Source: Promineifilum sp. (lineage in GTDB: Bacteria; Chloroflexota; Anaerolineae; Promineifilales; Promineifilaceae). From it: a DNA stretch of 32,486 bases. Positions 23,335-30,409 of the stretch are shown one piece after another. The DNA is taken from the NCBI GenBank assembly GCA_019695075.1, contig JAIBAS010000502.1, positions 1-32,486 of the forward strand, given 5' to 3'. The notes under the pieces were generated by a model that saw only the letters and a list, made by a program, of their open reading frames with translations, was not told the origin of the DNA and ran no database searches. Position numbers and translations under genes: made by a program. How positions within the stretch are numbered: the first letter of the stretch is position 1; the number at the start of each line of letters is the position of its first letter.

Positions 23335-24267
23335 CTAGGGCATATTGGCCAGCCGCACCACCGTGCCGCTCAGGTCGGTGTGGGCCTCATACTCCTGGCC
23401 GCCGGCGCTGAGCATGACGATCCAGCCCGGCGTGATGGCTTGCAGGCAGGCCTCGTCCGGCCCGCCCAGGCCCAGGCAGCCATCGCTGAACTCGGCCTGC
23501 TCGGCCGACACCACGGTGATCTCGTCCGGCGTCAGGCCCAGCTGGTCGGCCAGCACGGCCGCGGCCGAGGCGGTGATGGCGTCGGTCGAATCCGTGCCCA
23601 TGCCCGCGTCGGCAATGCGCACGTTCGTGCCCGTCAGGTCGGTGTGGGCTTCGTACTCCTGGCCACCGGCATTGAGCATGACCAGCCAGCCGGGCGTGAT
23701 GGCCTGCGCGCACATCTCCTCCGGCCCGCCCAGCCCCAGGCAACCATCGCTGAACTCGGTCTGCTCGGCCGACACCACGGTGATCTCGTCCGGCGTCAGG
23801 CCCAGCTGGTCGGCCAGCACGGCCGCGGCCGAGGCGGTGATGGCGTCCATCTCGCTCGCGCCGGCGCTGTTGCCGGCAACGCGCACTTGCTCGCCGGTGG
23901 CGTCGGTGCGAACCTCGTACTCCCGGCCGTTGGCGCTGAGCATGATCGTCCAGCCGGGCGTGAGGGCCTGCAGGCAGCTCTCCGCCGGCCCACCCAGGCC
24001 CAGGCAGCCGTCGCTGAACTCGGTCTCTTCGGCCGACAGCACAAGGATGTCGCTCTCGGCGATACCCTGTTCGGTCGCCAGTTGAGCGATGGCGGCGGAC
24101 GTGACGGCATTGCCCGCGCCCTCGGCGGGCGTTTCGGCCGTCGGTTGCGCCATTTCCGGCGTCGCGGTCAGGTCGCTCGCGCCCGGTTCGGCCCCGGTGG
24201 GCTGACAGGCGACCAACAGGGCCAGCAAGAGCGCCAACACCGCGGCAAACGGCTTAAAAGAAGACAT
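23335..24267 (-). CDS. Putative lipoprotein with three ~88-residue Cys-containing repeats
   Basis: A 310-residue protein starting with a lipoprotein signal peptide: hydrophobic residues ~6-20 and lipobox LVAC with Cys21 as the acylation site. It should sit on the outer face of the membrane. After a linker rich in Thr, Pro and Glu come three repeats (55-142, 143-230, 231-310). Each has the core EFSDGCLGLGGP, a second Cys ten residues on, TPGW, and a GxEYExxTD ending; the pairs Cys88/98, 176/186 and 264/274 could form disulphides. Repeats 2 and 3 share an exact 87-base DNA stretch, so they were duplicated recently. AAGGAG lies about 10 bases before the ATG. I do not recognise a function; an extracellular binding or inhibitor-like role is possible but unsupported. 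Confidence 0.85.
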   Translation of the reverse strand: MSSFKPFAAVLALLLALLVACQPTGAEPGASDLTATPEMAQPTAETPAEGAGNAVTSAAIAQLATEQGIAESDILVLSAEETEFSDGCLGLGGPAESCLQALTPGWTIMLSANGREYEVRTDATGEQVRVAGNSAGASEMDAITASAAAVLADQLGLTPDEITVVSAEQTEFSDGCLGLGGPEEMCAQAITPGWLVMLNAGGQEYEAHTDLTGTNVRIADAGMGTDSTDAITASAAAVLADQLGLTPDEITVVSAEQAEFSDGCLGLGGPDEACLQAITPGWIVMLSAGGQEYEAHTDLSGTVVRLANMP

Positions 24268-24412: not shown

Positions 24413-26152
24413 TCAGCCAAGCAAGTAGCCCAACGCCTTAAGTCGTTTGCGAAACCTTTGGAGGTTTGAGGACGACACCAGCACCGTCGTACTGTCCAAT
24501 GGCCGGCATAGTCTCGACAAGGTCGTATCATGTTCAATGACAGTGAGGGCACGCGGCTCCTTCAACTGAATCATGATAGCCGTTTTCCCCTCAGTGAAGA
24601 CGCCAACGTTCCGCTTCAGCTGCGCCAACCAGTCAATGACCGTCTGGGGTAACAGGCCATGATGGTGTTTCGTCAAGAAACCGGCCAGAAGCTCGAACTC
24701 TTGACCAGACTCCACGGCCGTCAATAACTTCTCTACGCTCAACAGGTATACCTTATCTTCTATCGGATCCGCCATCACCTCCAATTGTAGTTGTTCATTT
24801 GGCAATAGATCCGTGAGAACATGCAGTTGTAACCCTTCGTCAATCACAAACAAGTCCCGCTGCGGCAGGAGCGTCGGGATATACTCGTCCGCCTGCCCTA
24901 ACAAGAACTCTCCCCAGTTATTGATACGGAAGTAGAGTAAGCCATCGTGTAAGCTGTATGCGCTATCGATGTACATAACAGAGACAGAGGCGCCCACGAA
25001 ACTGGCATCCTCCGACACGTAGGCGATATCCACCGCGCCGATTGTCGCCAGATACTCCATGATGACAGCATTAATGTATAGCCCGCGGACAATTAGCCAG
25101 TAATCTTCAGTGCCCATATACCCGTAGTCCTTATATGGCCCGGCGTACAGGTTACTCCACTGAGTTGCTTCCACGTCGAAGTCGAAATGCCAGATCTTGA
25201 TCGCCCGGTAGAAATCATGGATGTCAATCCAGGTATGCGTAGGACACCAGGAAAGCGCCTCGATGATCTTCTCACGGCGGGAAGCGGGCAGCGTTAGGGA
25301 AGTACCGCGTGCATTCAGCCCATGAAGCTGGTCAATACGGGTCAGTTCATCAAATGTGCTCTGTTCCGCCCATCTTTCGAACGCCTCAAGGAACACCGCA
25401 GGGTCTTGTGTGTGCAGGTATTTACGTCCGGCAGGGCTTAACTTGCCGCCATAGGCGACCAGGTTAGCGCCTTGAGTGAACATGTCCAGGCCAAAAGGGC
25501 GTATCACATTACGGCCTGTGATCTTCTCCGGTTCGGGGTGGAAATCACCTGCCACCAGTTGGGTAAGGACCTTATGCACGCTTCCAGCCGTCAGCCGTTT
25601 GTTGTTGGAACCCCACTTCAACGCGCCCTGGTCCACCAACTGTAGAAAGGTGAGCAAGTCAGCCCGTCCCGTTATCTCCGTTTCAGCTAGTTCTACGCTG
25701 TAGATGTCCCGGTCCTGGATAACGGTTCCCGGCAGCACCTCAACGCCCACCAGTTGAAACCGTTCTAGCGGCAAAACCAGGGCCGTCAAGTGGGGTATCA
25801 AGTCGACGGGAATCTGCTCGTTGATCACAAACAGATCGAACAGGACAGGTGTTCGCCGACTGTCGTAAAAGTATCCTATCGGCTGGGAGCGGGGCGGCAG
25901 TGCTCCATATTGAGCGATAAAGGCCTGCGCGTCGAACAGTCCTTCGTTGTGGTAGGCGCTGGAAACAGCTCTCTGAGCCAGAGGTTCAAGCTGCTGCCAG
26001 GTTCTGGACAGCGTCGCCTTATCAAGCATCTGCCGGCATATATAGTCAACGAGATCGGCTTTGCGGGTGAGCCGCTTGCCACCCAACAACTCGAAGTAAC
26101 GCTTGAGCGTCTCGCTCGTCCATTGATGTAATGCTTGCTCCATTGTCAACAT
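24413..26152 (-). CDS. Protein of unknown function in SNF2/SWIM operon, possibly helicase-associated winged-helix type
   Basis: A 579-residue soluble protein I do not firmly recognise. Its first ~45 residues (LKRYFELLGGKRLTRKADLVDYI) look like a SAP-like helical DNA-binding motif. The middle has winged-helix-like stretches (LTFLQLVDQGALKWGSNNKRLT; LIVRGLYINAVIMEYLATIGAVDIAYV). The overall look recalls the helicase-associated C-terminal family found near XPB/SNF2 helicases; this is a family resemblance judged by eye. There is no Walker motif or nuclease motif. Its start ATG (26152) overlaps the stop of the SWIM gene by 7 bases; ATG 26143 is an alternative. Both imply tight coupling, so it is probably a partner of the SNF2 and SWIM proteins. 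Codon use is visibly less GC-rich than in most of the window. Confidence 0.7.
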   Translation of the reverse strand: MLTMEQALHQWTSETLKRYFELLGGKRLTRKADLVDYICRQMLDKATLSRTWQQLEPLAQRAVSSAYHNEGLFDAQAFIAQYGALPPRSQPIGYFYDSRRTPVLFDLFVINEQIPVDLIPHLTALVLPLERFQLVGVEVLPGTVIQDRDIYSVELAETEITGRADLLTFLQLVDQGALKWGSNNKRLTAGSVHKVLTQLVAGDFHPEPEKITGRNVIRPFGLDMFTQGANLVAYGGKLSPAGRKYLHTQDPAVFLEAFERWAEQSTFDELTRIDQLHGLNARGTSLTLPASRREKIIEALSWCPTHTWIDIHDFYRAIKIWHFDFDVEATQWSNLYAGPYKDYGYMGTEDYWLIVRGLYINAVIMEYLATIGAVDIAYVSEDASFVGASVSVMYIDSAYSLHDGLLYFRINNWGEFLLGQADEYIPTLLPQRDLFVIDEGLQLHVLTDLLPNEQLQLEVMADPIEDKVYLLSVEKLLTAVESGQEFELLAGFLTKHHHGLLPQTVIDWLAQLKRNVGVFTEGKTAIMIQLKEPRALTVIEHDTTLSRLCRPLDSTTVLVSSSNLQRFRKRLKALGYLLG

Positions 26153-27006
26153 TCTGATCCACTCCCCTCATTCCCCATGGAGTAAGCGATTCGCATGGCC
26201 GTGGCCGAGGCTAAATCGTACGCCTCTGCCAGCCAAAGACGAGCGTCCGGCATGAAGTCCGGATCACCCAGCCGCTCCAACAGGGGATATGGCTCTTCCG
26301 GTGTGGCGATGTGCACCACAAACCCCTCAAGTTCCGGGCCGGATTGCCAGAAATCGGCCAAAGATTCATTGAGTGAGGGGGCGCGCATATAGTCGGAGAC
26401 GAGGGCAGCATCCTTGTGATCCTTCGTCGCGCCCAGAGCCGCCACGATCTCCTCTTGTGTTTTCCCCCGCAGTCGGAACAGTAAAAATGGATCCTCGTCA
26501 AACCGTTGCGCCAGAATGTAATGAACCGCTGCTAGATGTTTGCAGACATCGGCCCAATCAGGGCAGTTGCATTCTTGTTTAAGCTCTTCAGTACCCGGGA
26601 ACAGATTCAATTTCACTGATTGGAAAGCTTCTTCTATGTCCGGCGGCATTTGCCCGGCGAGCAACTGAGCGACGAAGTATGGCCGGTCGGCCAACGCTAC
26701 CATTACCTTCTTCCATGCCGTCTCCGCAAGCGGTATTATACGGATGGTCACTTTATAAGGTGCGCGTCGAGAACCTTGTACCTTGGCCTTAATCTCACCC
26801 TTACTCTCTTCGAGCGCCAGTACTTGCCCTTTGCGAGCATAACTGCGCCCACGCTGCAAACGGCCGCGATCCATTACCTGCTCCATTGCCTCAATCCACC
26901 GGCTGGCCCACCAGTTCTTCACAAACTCCCCCTGTTTGCTCCTGGCTTTGATGCCCTCATTGGTCTCAACCGGTCTGGTCGGTTTAGAATTGTGGTACCA
27001 ACTCAT
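26146..27006 (-). CDS. SWIM zinc-finger protein
   Basis: A 286-residue protein with a SWIM zinc-binding motif CxC...CxH at Cys146, Cys148, Cys155 and His157 (ECNCPDWADVCKH). SWIM domains bind DNA or proteins and are often found fused to or next to SNF2 ATPases, as with the ywqA-ywqB pair of Bacillus subtilis. I chose the ATG at 27006 because a perfect AGGAGG lies 6-7 bases upstream and the protein then starts MSWYHNSKPTRP. The frame is open 33 codons further, but those run into the SNF2 gene end. It lies 38 bases after the SNF2 stop, and its own stop overlaps the next start. The N-terminal half (NWWASRWIEAME, RGRSYARKG) is the usual lead-in of bacterial SWIM proteins. Confidence 0.88.
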   Translation of the reverse strand: MSWYHNSKPTRPVETNEGIKARSKQGEFVKNWWASRWIEAMEQVMDRGRLQRGRSYARKGQVLALEESKGEIKAKVQGSRRAPYKVTIRIIPLAETAWKKVMVALADRPYFVAQLLAGQMPPDIEEAFQSVKLNLFPGTEELKQECNCPDWADVCKHLAAVHYILAQRFDEDPFLLFRLRGKTQEEIVAALGATKDHKDAALVSDYMRAPSLNESLADFWQSGPELEGFVVHIATPEEPYPLLERLGDPDFMPDARLWLAEAYDLASATAMRIAYSMGNEGSGSEC

Positions 27007-27044
27007 GGTATCCTCCTGAATGGGTGGTCGGGCAATTGCCGGTA

Positions 27045-30000
27045 CTAATCGCGCCGCAGGCTCACCATCTGTCGCAGAGAGGCGGTGCTCATCTCGGTCA
27101 GCCAATTTTCCCCACTACCGATAATACTCTCGGCCAGTGCTTTCTTATCTTCAATCATGGCGTCAATGCGCTCTTCCAATGTACCCAGACAGACAAATTT
27201 GTGTACCAGCACGTTCTTTGTCTGGCCGATGCGGAAGGCGCGGTCGGTGGCCTGGTTCTCGACGGCCGGATTCCACCAGCGGTCGAAGTGAAAGACGTGG
27301 TTCGCTCCGGTCAGGTTCAGTCCGGTGCCGCCCGCCTTGAGCGAGAGCAAAAAGATTGGCGGCCCGTCCGGCTGTTGGAAATGCGCCACCATCGCCGCCC
27401 GCTTTTTGGGTGGGACAGCGCCATGCAAATAGAGGGTGGGCACACCAAACCGCTCATGAATAAAGCTTTGTAGCAGCTCGGCCATTTCAGTAAATTGGCT
27501 AAAGACGAGCACCCTATCGCCTTCGGCCAGAATCTCATCTAACAGGTCACTGAATCGCTCTAATTTACCGGAACGGTTAAGGTCTTCGCCCGGCCTATAG
27601 GCCTTCGTCTCGTGCAAGTAGTGGGCCGGGTGGTTGCATACCTGCTTCAGCTGCATGAGCATGCTCAGCACCAGCCCCTTGCGAGCGATACCGCCTTCAT
27701 CCTGCGACTCGATGGCGGCCAAGGCGTCGCGTACGACGGCCTCATATAGCGTCGCCTGCTCTTCGCTGAGCTGGCAGTACACCTTCACCTCTTGCTTATC
27801 CGGCAAGTCTTGAATGACGGTGGGGTCGGTTTTCACACGGCGCAGCAGAAACGGCCGTGTCATATGTCTGAGCTTTTGTGCGGCATCCTTATCCCCATAT
27901 TTTTCAATGGGCAGGATAAAATCTTGCCGGAACTTTTTTTGCCCGCCCAAATAGCCGGGGTTTAAAAAGTGCATAATCGACCATAGTTCTGAGAGGCGGT
28001 TTTCTACCGGCGTCCCCGTTAACGCCATCCGGAAGTCCGCGGTTAGTTTGCGGATGGTTTGCGCCTGTTTTGTGGTGGCGTTTTTGATGTTTTGCGCCTC
28101 GTCGAGAATCACGCCAAACCACTCGATTTGCTTAAGCGTCTCGCCATCTCGCCGCACCAGGGCATAACTGGTAAGCAGCACGTCGCAGGCTTTGGCCGCC
28201 TCAATTAGAGCCGCTTCGCGCAGCCGATCTCCGCCCTGATGGACCAGCGTTTGCAGGCCGGGTGCGAACTTTTGCTTTTCCAACTCCCAGTTGGTCACTA
28301 CGGAGGTTGGGCAGATGAGCAGAATAGGGGCCGGCAAGCAGCCCATCTCTTCCTTAAGTTGCTGGATCATGGTCAAGGCCTGGATGGTCTTGCCTAACCC
28401 CATGTCATCGGCGAGGATCACCCCTAAACCCCATCGACTGGCGAAGTAAAGCCAGGAATAGCCGTACTGCTGGTAAGGTCTTAACACCCCCCGCACACCG
28501 GCCGGGGTGGACAACAACTCCAGCTTCTCATCGCCTTGTAGCCGGTTCAGCCAGCTTTGCAACCAACTATCAAACTCTACACCATCTACCGACAGGCCAT
28601 CGCGCTGTGTCTCGCCGCCCAGCCCCAATTGCATGGCTTCAGGGAGCGAGAGAGCGCCCTCAAAATCCTGCTTTCGCCAGAATTTCATGGCGGCCTCGAT
28701 TTGCTCGGCGTCGAGTTGCACCCATTGGCCGCGAATCTGCACCAATGGCGATTTCAGGGCAACCAGAGCATCAAATTCTTCGTGACTCAGTTCGGTATCG
28801 CCCAACGAAAGCTGCCAGCGATAATTGACCAGATTCTCCAGGTTCATGTGACCACGGGAAAACTGCCCGGTCAATTTCGACGTGCTGCTCAATTTCAGGC
28901 GCACACCCAGGCGCGTGCCCGGCTTGTTCCACCACGGTGGAACAAGCAAGCCAAAGCCGGCACGTGTCAAATGCGGCGCGCATTGCCGCAAAAAAACGTA
29001 CGCTTCGTCTGTAGTCAGTGCAGCGCCGGTAGGGGCGCGCTGCTGTAGGCTGCGTTGGATTGGCTGGAAGAAACGGGCCGCGTACCCTAAACCGGTGAGT
29101 AGGCGTTCCTGCGGCTGCTCAAAATAGCGATTGAGCGATTGCAGGATACTCTCCTTGGTTTTCCACACTTCCGCGGCCGGCACCAGCAGGCTGGCATCAT
29201 CCCGTGCTTGCAAGAAGTAATTTAACTGCCAGCTGGTTTCGCTTTTTCCCGTCCGAGTATCCTCTTGCTGGGCCGGCACTTCCAGCCTCAGGGCGACGCG
29301 GTACTGTTTGTTGCCGGCAACGGTGAGCGTCCGTTCCCAGGCGCGAAAGCTGCTCGCCAAGTGCTGCATCTGCCCGGCGCTGGCCTGGACGGTGGCGTCA
29401 ACGGTAAACAACGCTCGCAACCAGGCCGCCGCGGGATCGTTGCCGGCAGGCAAAGAAGGTGCTTGCCTGGCTACCCAATGGCGCATGGCCGCGTCCGTCA
29501 GATGGTTCAAAAAGCCATCCAGACTAGCCTGAGGCGAGATGGTTTCGGCTGGGGTGACGGCGTCGGCGCGACAGATGGGCGGCATGGCCGCCGCCAACTG
29601 GGCGACCCGGCGCGCTTCATCTTCTCCATCCAGCAGCGGCCGCCAGCGAGATTCGAACCTCAATGTCCTCTGGTCGGGCACTTGAACCAGCGTCGGACGA
29701 ACCAACTGCCGGGCGAGTAGTTCCAGAGCAAAGGAGAAGGCAGTTTGCCAATAGTGGGCGTCGGCGCCTAAACGCCGCAGCGGCGGCAAATCATTTTGGT
29801 GCAAATAGGTCAACAACGACAGTGTTTGGAGTGCGTCCAGAGCCAGACCGGTAATCTCCCATTGGCATAGAGCAGGCGACTCGTCAGCCGCGTCCATCAT
29901 CTGCCCCAGCTCAGGCGGCAGCAAAGGGCCAAAGCGATTTGTGGGCAGCCAGAGAACCAGGGACTCAACCGGCAACTCGTTTGGCAGTCCCACTGCGGCG

Positions 30001-30170
30001 ATGAACCGGCGTAGTGTCTGTGGATTGGCGATACGCGGGTGAGGTTGCGTTTTCTTCTTGCGTTTATGGCCTATAGACTGGTCGACCATAGCCGATTCCG
30101 CCCAAATGAACGAACGGCCATGCAGTTCCTGTTGAACCGGCGTCAGCCAGTGCAGATGCAGAAGTTGCAT
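27045..30170 (-). CDS. SNF2-family DEAD/DEAH-like helicase/ATPase
   Basis: A 1041-residue SWI2/SNF2 ATPase. Residues 1-~555 are an N-terminal region typical of the bacterial long form, with a conserved module near 440-550 (HMNLENLVNYRWQLSLGD). The motor follows: Walker A ADDMGLGKT (Lys594), Walker B DEAQ 690-693, TGTPVENR near 718, then the second lobe with VFSQFTEM, SLKAGGTGLNLT and DRAFRIGQ (976-983). DEAQ in place of DEAH is normal for this group. Such proteins translocate on double-stranded DNA and remodel bound proteins. It is first in a three-gene operon with a SWIM protein and an unknown partner. AGGAA precedes the ATG. Adjacency to tRNA-Asp and lower GC in the operon hint at acquisition, but no integrase or duplicated tRNA end is visible. 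Confidence 0.93.
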   Translation of the reverse strand: MQLLHLHWLTPVQQELHGRSFIWAESAMVDQSIGHKRKKKTQPHPRIANPQTLRRFIAAVGLPNELPVESLVLWLPTNRFGPLLPPELGQMMDAADESPALCQWEITGLALDALQTLSLLTYLHQNDLPPLRRLGADAHYWQTAFSFALELLARQLVRPTLVQVPDQRTLRFESRWRPLLDGEDEARRVAQLAAAMPPICRADAVTPAETISPQASLDGFLNHLTDAAMRHWVARQAPSLPAGNDPAAAWLRALFTVDATVQASAGQMQHLASSFRAWERTLTVAGNKQYRVALRLEVPAQQEDTRTGKSETSWQLNYFLQARDDASLLVPAAEVWKTKESILQSLNRYFEQPQERLLTGLGYAARFFQPIQRSLQQRAPTGAALTTDEAYVFLRQCAPHLTRAGFGLLVPPWWNKPGTRLGVRLKLSSTSKLTGQFSRGHMNLENLVNYRWQLSLGDTELSHEEFDALVALKSPLVQIRGQWVQLDAEQIEAAMKFWRKQDFEGALSLPEAMQLGLGGETQRDGLSVDGVEFDSWLQSWLNRLQGDEKLELLSTPAGVRGVLRPYQQYGYSWLYFASRWGLGVILADDMGLGKTIQALTMIQQLKEEMGCLPAPILLICPTSVVTNWELEKQKFAPGLQTLVHQGGDRLREAALIEAAKACDVLLTSYALVRRDGETLKQIEWFGVILDEAQNIKNATTKQAQTIRKLTADFRMALTGTPVENRLSELWSIMHFLNPGYLGGQKKFRQDFILPIEKYGDKDAAQKLRHMTRPFLLRRVKTDPTVIQDLPDKQEVKVYCQLSEEQATLYEAVVRDALAAIESQDEGGIARKGLVLSMLMQLKQVCNHPAHYLHETKAYRPGEDLNRSGKLERFSDLLDEILAEGDRVLVFSQFTEMAELLQSFIHERFGVPTLYLHGAVPPKKRAAMVAHFQQPDGPPIFLLSLKAGGTGLNLTGANHVFHFDRWWNPAVENQATDRAFRIGQTKNVLVHKFVCLGTLEERIDAMIEDKKALAESIIGSGENWLTEMSTASLRQMVSLRRD

Positions 30171-30336: not shown

Positions 30337-30409
30337 CGGGAGCGACGGGGATCGAACCCGCGATCTTCGGCTTGACAGGCCGACGTGTTAACCGCTACAC
30401 CACGCCCCC
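30337..30409 (-). tRNA. tRNA-Asp (anticodon GTC)
   Basis: The reverse complement of these 73 bases folds as a complete cloverleaf. The acceptor stem is GGGGGCG/CGCTCCC with one G-U pair and discriminator G. The D arm is GTGT...ACAC and the anticodon arm is TCGGC-CTGTCAA-GCCGA, giving anticodon GTC. The T arm has loop TTCGATC. CCA is not encoded. A clear terminator follows. It stands alone upstream of the SNF2 operon; I found no duplicated 3' tRNA fragment near 24300 that would mark an integrated element. Confidence 0.95.

Follow-up and report, generated by a model that had tools for sequence, protein, structure and literature searches.

A p52/Tfb2-like protein encoded in an operon with an SNF2 motor and a SWIM protein in Chloroflexota

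Introduction

Contig JAIBAS010000502.1 of Promineifilum sp. (Chloroflexota; assembly GCA_019695075.1, 86.9% complete, here G000) raises the question of why a gene for a 579-residue protein is coupled to the genes of an SNF2-family motor and a SWIM zinc-finger protein. The entire contig, 32,486 nucleotides, is the stretch analyzed here and is referred to as the window; the three genes lie on its minus strand, next to a tRNA-Asp gene. The original prediction, made from the sequence alone, had described them as a tightly packed operon that would suit DNA repair, chromatin remodelling or phage defence. We find that the third protein is very probably p52/Tfb2-like, a relation proposed from its modeled fold. 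In human TFIIH, a transcription and DNA-repair complex, p52 holds the XPB motor and regulates it. According to our best explanation, to which we assign a probability of about 60%, the operon encodes a three-subunit double-stranded DNA (dsDNA) translocase composed of the SNF2 motor, the SWIM protein and the p52/Tfb2-type protein; the last would anchor and regulate SNF2, and DNA repair is its most likely purpose. Bacteria appear to possess a regulatory component regarded as eukaryotic, which seems to have switched to another motor. The point of interest is this p52-like third partner, with relatives beside bacterial XPB, and not the SNF2-SWIM pair. Our literature search found no report of a bacterial p52/Tfb2 protein; it covered titles and the starts of abstracts, and few subscription papers or preprints, so that novelty is provisional.

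The third protein resembles p52 in fold and domain order

A scan of genome contigs yielded 236 relatives of the third protein, the best 80 of which were kept for all locus tallies. An AlphaFold (AF2) model built from an alignment of 78 sequences reached a predicted local distance difference test score (pLDDT) of 93.1 and a predicted TM-score (pTM) of 0.85. When this model was compared with the PDB using Foldseek, ranks 1–15 were all TFIIH p52/Tfb2 chains (E 2.5e-7 to 1.5e-4), and the remaining matches down to E ~0.1 belonged to p52 or to XPB, with the XPB chains aligning to the clutch region. VIA-align superimposed the model on p52 with a Z-score of 13.9 over 298 residues (6.3 Å). The domain arrangement is the one known from p52 in the XPB-p52(Tfb2)-p8 module of TFIIH: winged helices, clutch and C-terminal domain follow each other colinearly over residues 130–578, and a SAP-like domain is added at the N-terminus (Table 1).

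The sequence evidence for this relation is weaker than that of the fold, but agrees with it. A profile of the 78 relatives matched 2rno ('Putative DNA-binding protein'), which we take to be a SAP domain, at positions 8–80 (E 1e-4). The third-protein profile reached the N-terminal domain (NTD) of human XPB at E 0.005–0.011, and hhalign paired the bacterial XPB NTD with the clutch profile at 96.6% (E 6e-10). PF13625 was matched by 64 of the 78 members and, below its cut-off, by the window protein (E 5e-4), for which it was the only Pfam match; searches of NCBIfam and PADLOC returned none. The winged-helix regions that had been suspected in the 579-residue protein are borne out by the structural match to p52, and the profile and structure searches proposed at the time led to a p52/Tfb2-like identity that had been missed.

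Table 1 Features of the operon, its protein domains and the neighboring tRNA gene in the window
Feature	Position	Strand	Remark
SNF2 gene, first of operon	27045-30170	-	ORF (open reading frame), 1041 aa
SWIM gene, second of operon	26146-27006	-	287 aa from ATG
p52/Tfb2-like gene, third of operon	24413-26152	-	ORF, 579 aa
tRNA-Asp(GTC)	30337-30409	-	upstream of operon; likely edge of variable site
Third protein: SAP-like region, residues 8-80, possible DNA binding	25913-26131	-	2rno profile match
Third protein: winged-helix-like middle, residues ~130-430	24863-25765	-	p52 N-terminal half 6tru_D, Z 8.7, 150 residues, 3.6 Å
Third protein: clutch domain, XPB N-terminal-domain fold, residues 430-516	24605-24865	-	XPB NTD 6ro4_A, Z 11.9, 87 residues, 2.3 Å
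Third protein: Tfb2 C-terminal (p8/Tfb5-binding)-like domain, residues 520-578	24419-24595	-	3dom_B, Z 5.2, 55 residues, 2.6 Å
SNF2: DUF3670, residues 379-515	28626-29036	-	Pfam E 3e-41
SNF2: SNF2-related motor domain (SNF2-rel_dom), residues 566-849	27624-28475	-	Pfam E 1e-70
SNF2: Helicase_C, residues 875-982	27225-27548	-	Pfam E 9e-23
SWIM motif CxCx(n)CxH	26536-26571	-	CNCPDWADVCKH

Relatives of the third protein adjoin either SNF2-SWIM or XPB

The 80 best loci come from many phyla, the named relatives being mostly Chloroflexota metagenome-assembled genomes, and nearly all of their proteins score 546–841 bits with the third-protein model. The gene lies beside both SNF2 and SWIM at 26 loci, nearly all in Chloroflexota, beside SWIM at two others where SNF2 was not seen in the stretch, and within 1.5 kb of XPB at 21. 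The bacterial XPB at such loci carries an NTD, as in the XPB-p52 pairing of TFIIH; the XPB-linked members include Candidatus Competibacter. The count of 26 in 80, which answers a proposal of the original prediction, means that the SNF2-SWIM-third order is retained far beyond chance. In six relatives (L070, L072, L073, L074, L075 and L076) the start of the third gene overlaps the SWIM stop by 4–8 bases, and the trees of the SNF2 and third proteins are broadly alike. The gene order and the similar trees establish the three genes as a real, co-inherited unit.

Alignment A2 omitted five of the 80 loci (L111, L118, L141, L151 and L157), whose ORF was incomplete or outside 550–680 residues. In the tree of the third protein, L154 and L172 were labeled XPB by hand (a divergent XPB 1.9 kb away and a broken XPB directly upstream, respectively). 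In this 78-row tree, the SNF2+SWIM-linked proteins fall into one clade of 31 rows (29 labeled as such, two with no motor found; SH-aLRT 100), with the other 47 rows outside it. Along the tree, the partner label switches 13 times compared with 38 times in shuffles, a difference to which near-copies contribute. Given this single clade, the p52-type subunit looks as if it had moved between motors. The likeness of the clutch to the bacterial XPB NTD varies with the partner: the median was 15.7 bits for XPB-linked proteins (n = 20), 8.2 bits for those without a motor (n = 27), 0 bits for SNF2+SWIM-linked ones (n = 29) and -3.0 bits for two linked to SNF2 only. The lower value beside SNF2+SWIM would fit a loss of the XPB contact, though it may merely follow kinship.

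Two of the 80 loci, both gammaproteobacterial (Halochromatium, L158:9950-15576, and another gammaproteobacterium, L171:2546-8130), show a second SNF2 partnership, in which an SNF2 gene of another type, encoding ~1250 residues, has its start within the p52-like gene; no SWIM gene was found at either locus. In Pseudanabaena-type cyanobacteria (L136, L146, L150 and L170), a p52-like gene occurs with neither XPB nor SNF2 nearby.

XPB is rare where the triad occurs

We counted XPB as present when PF16203 was matched at E below 1e-40, a threshold that excluded weaker matches of frames of 465–498 residues and larger. In the set of relatives, XPB was found in none of 10 triad genomes and in 22 of 88 others. 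A further 22 genomes were searched; after exclusion of L104 and L116, in whose stretches no SNF2+SWIM lay beside the gene, XPB was present in one of 20. Overall, 1 of 30 triad genomes contains XPB compared with 22 of 88 others (Fisher 0.0076, ignoring kinship and genome completeness). Within the window's family, XPB occurred with 0 of 9 triads and with 5 of 7 SNF2-SWIM pairs lacking the third gene (Fisher 0.0048, under the same simplifications). Neither the operon nor the rest of the window genome, at 87% completeness, gave an XPB match, so that the partner here is SNF2-SWIM.

Among 20 XPB stretches fetched from the relatives (L184–L203), many XPB genes adjoin genes for clutch-region proteins of ~600–830 residues, one kind carrying a SWIM-type motif (L184, L185, L188, L190, L191 and others) and another two clutch regions. 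All of ten such neighbors scanned matched PF13625, two matched SWIM at E ≤ 0.01 and four showed a sub-threshold Tfb2 match. Pfam Tfb2 (PF03849) was matched at E ≤ 0.01 in 16 of 98 relatives, the window genome not being among them, and in none of 14 control genomes; its cut-off was passed once, by a double-clutch protein in G062 (C281). The combination of a motor with SWIM and p52/clutch parts thus recurs with both SNF2 and XPB. Like the window operon, these Chloroflexota operons group a dsDNA motor of superfamily 2 (SF2) with a SWIM protein and one of p52/clutch type, and some have the same p52-like gene; they differ in that the motor is XPB, SWIM and clutch are fused in one protein of ~780 residues, and the double-clutch protein belongs to a distinct family. 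L123:3710-8612 is also a Chloroflexota XPB operon, with a SWIM-motif clutch protein and a double-clutch protein that has a weak Tfb2 match.

Evidence against a p52-like motor subunit

Several observations count against the three-subunit translocase with a p52-type regulator. In contrast to TFIIH p52, the third protein of the window does not match Pfam Tfb2 (E up to 1), and p52 chains were missing, up to E 10, from a sequence-profile search of the PDB. Whole-length TM-scores were modest (0.33/0.41), because the domains agree better than their arrangement. On the side of the motor, hhalign searches of SNF2 and SWIM for a clutch partner gave probabilities of only 0.1–2.3% (1% for SNF2 and the XPB NTD), and a model of SNF2 residues 1–560, itself only moderate in quality (pLDDT 78.8), had no match to the XPB NTD or p52, no Foldseek match at E ≤ 0.001 and a best VIA Z-score of 3.2. 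Furthermore, 29 of the 80 best loci have none of SNF2, SWIM and XPB beside the gene, and SNF2-SWIM pairs often lack the third gene: of 28 relatives with such a pair, 10 have it adjoining.

These last two findings, together with the wide distribution of PF13625, which also occurs in other proteins of 550–800 residues, would also suit a general clutch and winged-helix DNA-binding protein that is no true relative of p52, works independently next to SNF2-SWIM in DNA binding or regulation and resembles p52 through shared small domains. We consider this unlikely in view of the colinear domain order, the 15 best structural matches, which are all p52, and the 49 of 80 relatives that adjoin an SNF2+SWIM, SWIM or XPB gene.

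The SNF2-SWIM pair

Judged by its domains, the 1041-residue protein is an SNF2-family dsDNA translocase, an assignment made at the outset and clear in Pfam (Table 1), with motor motifs DDMGLGKT at residue 588 and DEAQ at 690. Its best NCBIfam matches, the SCO1167/SCO6262 family helicase over the full length (742.6 bits) and the sll1366 family helicase at the N-terminus (401.8 bits), remain under the curated cut-offs of 1200 and 550, respectively. The SWIM ORF extends over 26146–27105 on the minus strand, open to a TTG at 27105, and its ATG at 27006 is preceded by AGGAGG. Counted from this ATG, 38 bases separate it from SNF2, and it overlaps the third gene by 7 bases; the ORF check reproduced the predicted packing beside tRNA-Asp exactly. 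The predicted SWIM zinc finger is likewise present as the motif CNCPDWADVCKH, although the Pfam SWIM match (15.3 bits) falls below the 19.6 cut-off. A PADLOC match of this protein to PDC-S62 covered only ~33 residues of a 566-position profile and was read as the zinc finger alone.

With an SNF2 gene containing DUF3670 next to a SWIM gene, the locus qualifies as an SNF2-SWIM pair, its Pfam SWIM match being sub-threshold. Such a pair is known from Bacillus as ywqA-ywqB, in which an SNF2 motor with DUF3670 is likewise followed by a SWIM protein; the window operon adds a third, translationally coupled p52-like gene. No paper on a bacterial SNF2-SWIM pair was identified in our literature search, judged from its listings.

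The closest solved relative of the motor is 1z63, an SNF2/Rad54-family helicase (E 6.6e-138), and seven genomes (G008, G019, G020, G038, G046, G050 and G051) retain the SNF2-SWIM pair but not the third gene. Both facts are what one would expect of a Rad54/RapA-like motor for recombination or transcription recycling, to which the other two genes would be accessories with a loose linkage and no set function. Such an arrangement is rather improbable, as the order and overlap of the third gene are kept across 26 loci and its tree is broadly that of SNF2.

Some relatives have a small gene separating SNF2 from SWIM: in one triad a gene for an EAD7-domain protein (L074:14034-14825), and in two genomes a gene for a protein of 218–219 residues and unknown family (L070:7205-7864 and L085:9042-9698). 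The SNF2 protein of G038 (L086:7018-10884) has 1288 residues, with ~210 extra in-frame residues near Walker A, which suggests an intein.

Phage defence

An anti-phage system of the Zorya, DISARM or Dpd type, built on an SNF2 helicase, would account for the patchy distribution, low GC content and tRNA-side position of the triad and for the EAD7-domain gene in one of its relatives. PADLOC matched the SNF2 motor to its DpdE and ZorD models, and the N-terminal half of SNF2 bears a very weak resemblance to ZorD (prob 0.15, Z 2.9). The equivalog cut-offs of defence families were, however, missed widely (ZorD 267.8 of 1500 bits, DrmD_b 107.6 of 950 and DpdE 48.4 of 500). PADLOC found no defence context among 10 neighbor proteins of triads elsewhere, which belong to ordinary Pfam families, and the third protein matched neither PADLOC nor, at E ≤ 0.001, any predicted viral structure. 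For these reasons we rejected defence as the best reading and regard it as very unlikely; the phage-defence role that had been suggested found no support.

A proposed TFIIH-like module with a different motor

We therefore return to the three-subunit translocase. By analogy with p52 and XPB, the third protein probably forms a complex with SNF2. Since the searches of SNF2 revealed no XPB-type clutch partner, the contact probably departs from the TFIIH one or is made through the SWIM protein. Eukaryotic p52 binds XPB through a dimer of NTD and clutch and sets its ATPase rate, and the two form a repair module; the p52-like subunit would correspondingly bind its neighboring motor and anchor, direct or limit it on duplex DNA. 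The SAP-like and winged-helix regions could supply DNA contacts, and the SWIM protein may dock, in a zinc-dependent manner, on DNA or a partner. The complete machine would then act in DNA repair by remodelling lesions or DNA-protein complexes. The searches brought up no defence context, and p52-XPB serves in repair, which is why we place repair ahead of defence; by the p52-XPB analogy, a repair role of the triad has about an even chance of being correct. TFIIH has XPB where the operon has SNF2; the SWIM protein and the SAP-like N-terminus of the third protein are further differences.

Archaea likewise pair an SF2 motor with a partner of its own, XPB working there with the nuclease Bax1 (PMC7672443); we found no nuclease domain in the triad. 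A 2026 review describes the function of bacterial and archaeal XPB as still elusive (PMC13024598). If the p52 assignment is true, bacterial XPB has a TFIIH-type partner, the motor-regulator core of TFIIH becomes testable in simple bacterial complexes of two or three subunits, and the XPB-to-SNF2 swap represents a natural experiment on the anchoring and speed limiting of translocases. More tentatively, and with doubts prevailing, the XPB-p52 module may not be a eukaryotic invention: p52-type proteins could be old prokaryotic adaptors for SF2 dsDNA translocases that serve XPB across many phyla and switched to SNF2 once in Chloroflexota and once in Gammaproteobacteria. The operon would then be a TFIIH-like machine of bacteria driven by another motor.

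Composition and history of the operon

The region 24413–30170 has a GC content of 0.560 compared with 0.676 in the rest of the window. GC content at third codon positions (GC3) is 0.59–0.68 in the three operon genes, while 14 of the other 18 listed ORFs lie at 0.85–0.93 and four (numbers 7, 8, 10 and 15) at 0.63–0.68, in line with the deviation expected from the original prediction. In eight other stretches, triads have a GC content of 0.45–0.58 whatever their surroundings (seven of them 0.53–0.58), so that the window triad resembles the triads of its relatives and not its own host.

An NYN gene is present in all eight genus members. It is followed by tRNA-Asp in six of the eight fetched genus stretches and in the window, with variable content beyond the tRNA. 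The triad is intact in the window genome alone; in six other members, with genomes 68–99% complete, neither the third protein nor SWIM found a match, and one (G007) carries an in-frame remnant. In the latter, the tRNA is followed by a cyclase/AAA/TPR gene (Pfam) and then by a 148-residue frame (L068:2716-3162) that joins SNF2 residues 1 to ~100 in frame to the C-terminal 50 residues of the third protein. Lying near NYN and tRNA-Asp, this frame is likely a deletion scar of the operon, or else an assembly error.

The window SNF2 clusters with family members most of which have no third gene; the window third protein clusters with that of G014. These differing groupings suggest that transfer occurred within the family and that the third gene was lost repeatedly. 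The unit probably reached the window genome by transfer, next to tRNA-Asp. Of the transferred functional unit originally proposed, co-inheritance is upheld, and acquisition by transfer is plausible from the GC content and the intact presence in one of eight genus members.

Adjoining the operon at 23335–24267 on the minus strand is a lipoprotein-like ORF with three similar repeats, each ending in a DGCLGLGG motif; listed ORF number 15, one of the four of low GC3, runs antisense to it. A similar lipoprotein-like ORF adjoins the deletion scar in G007.

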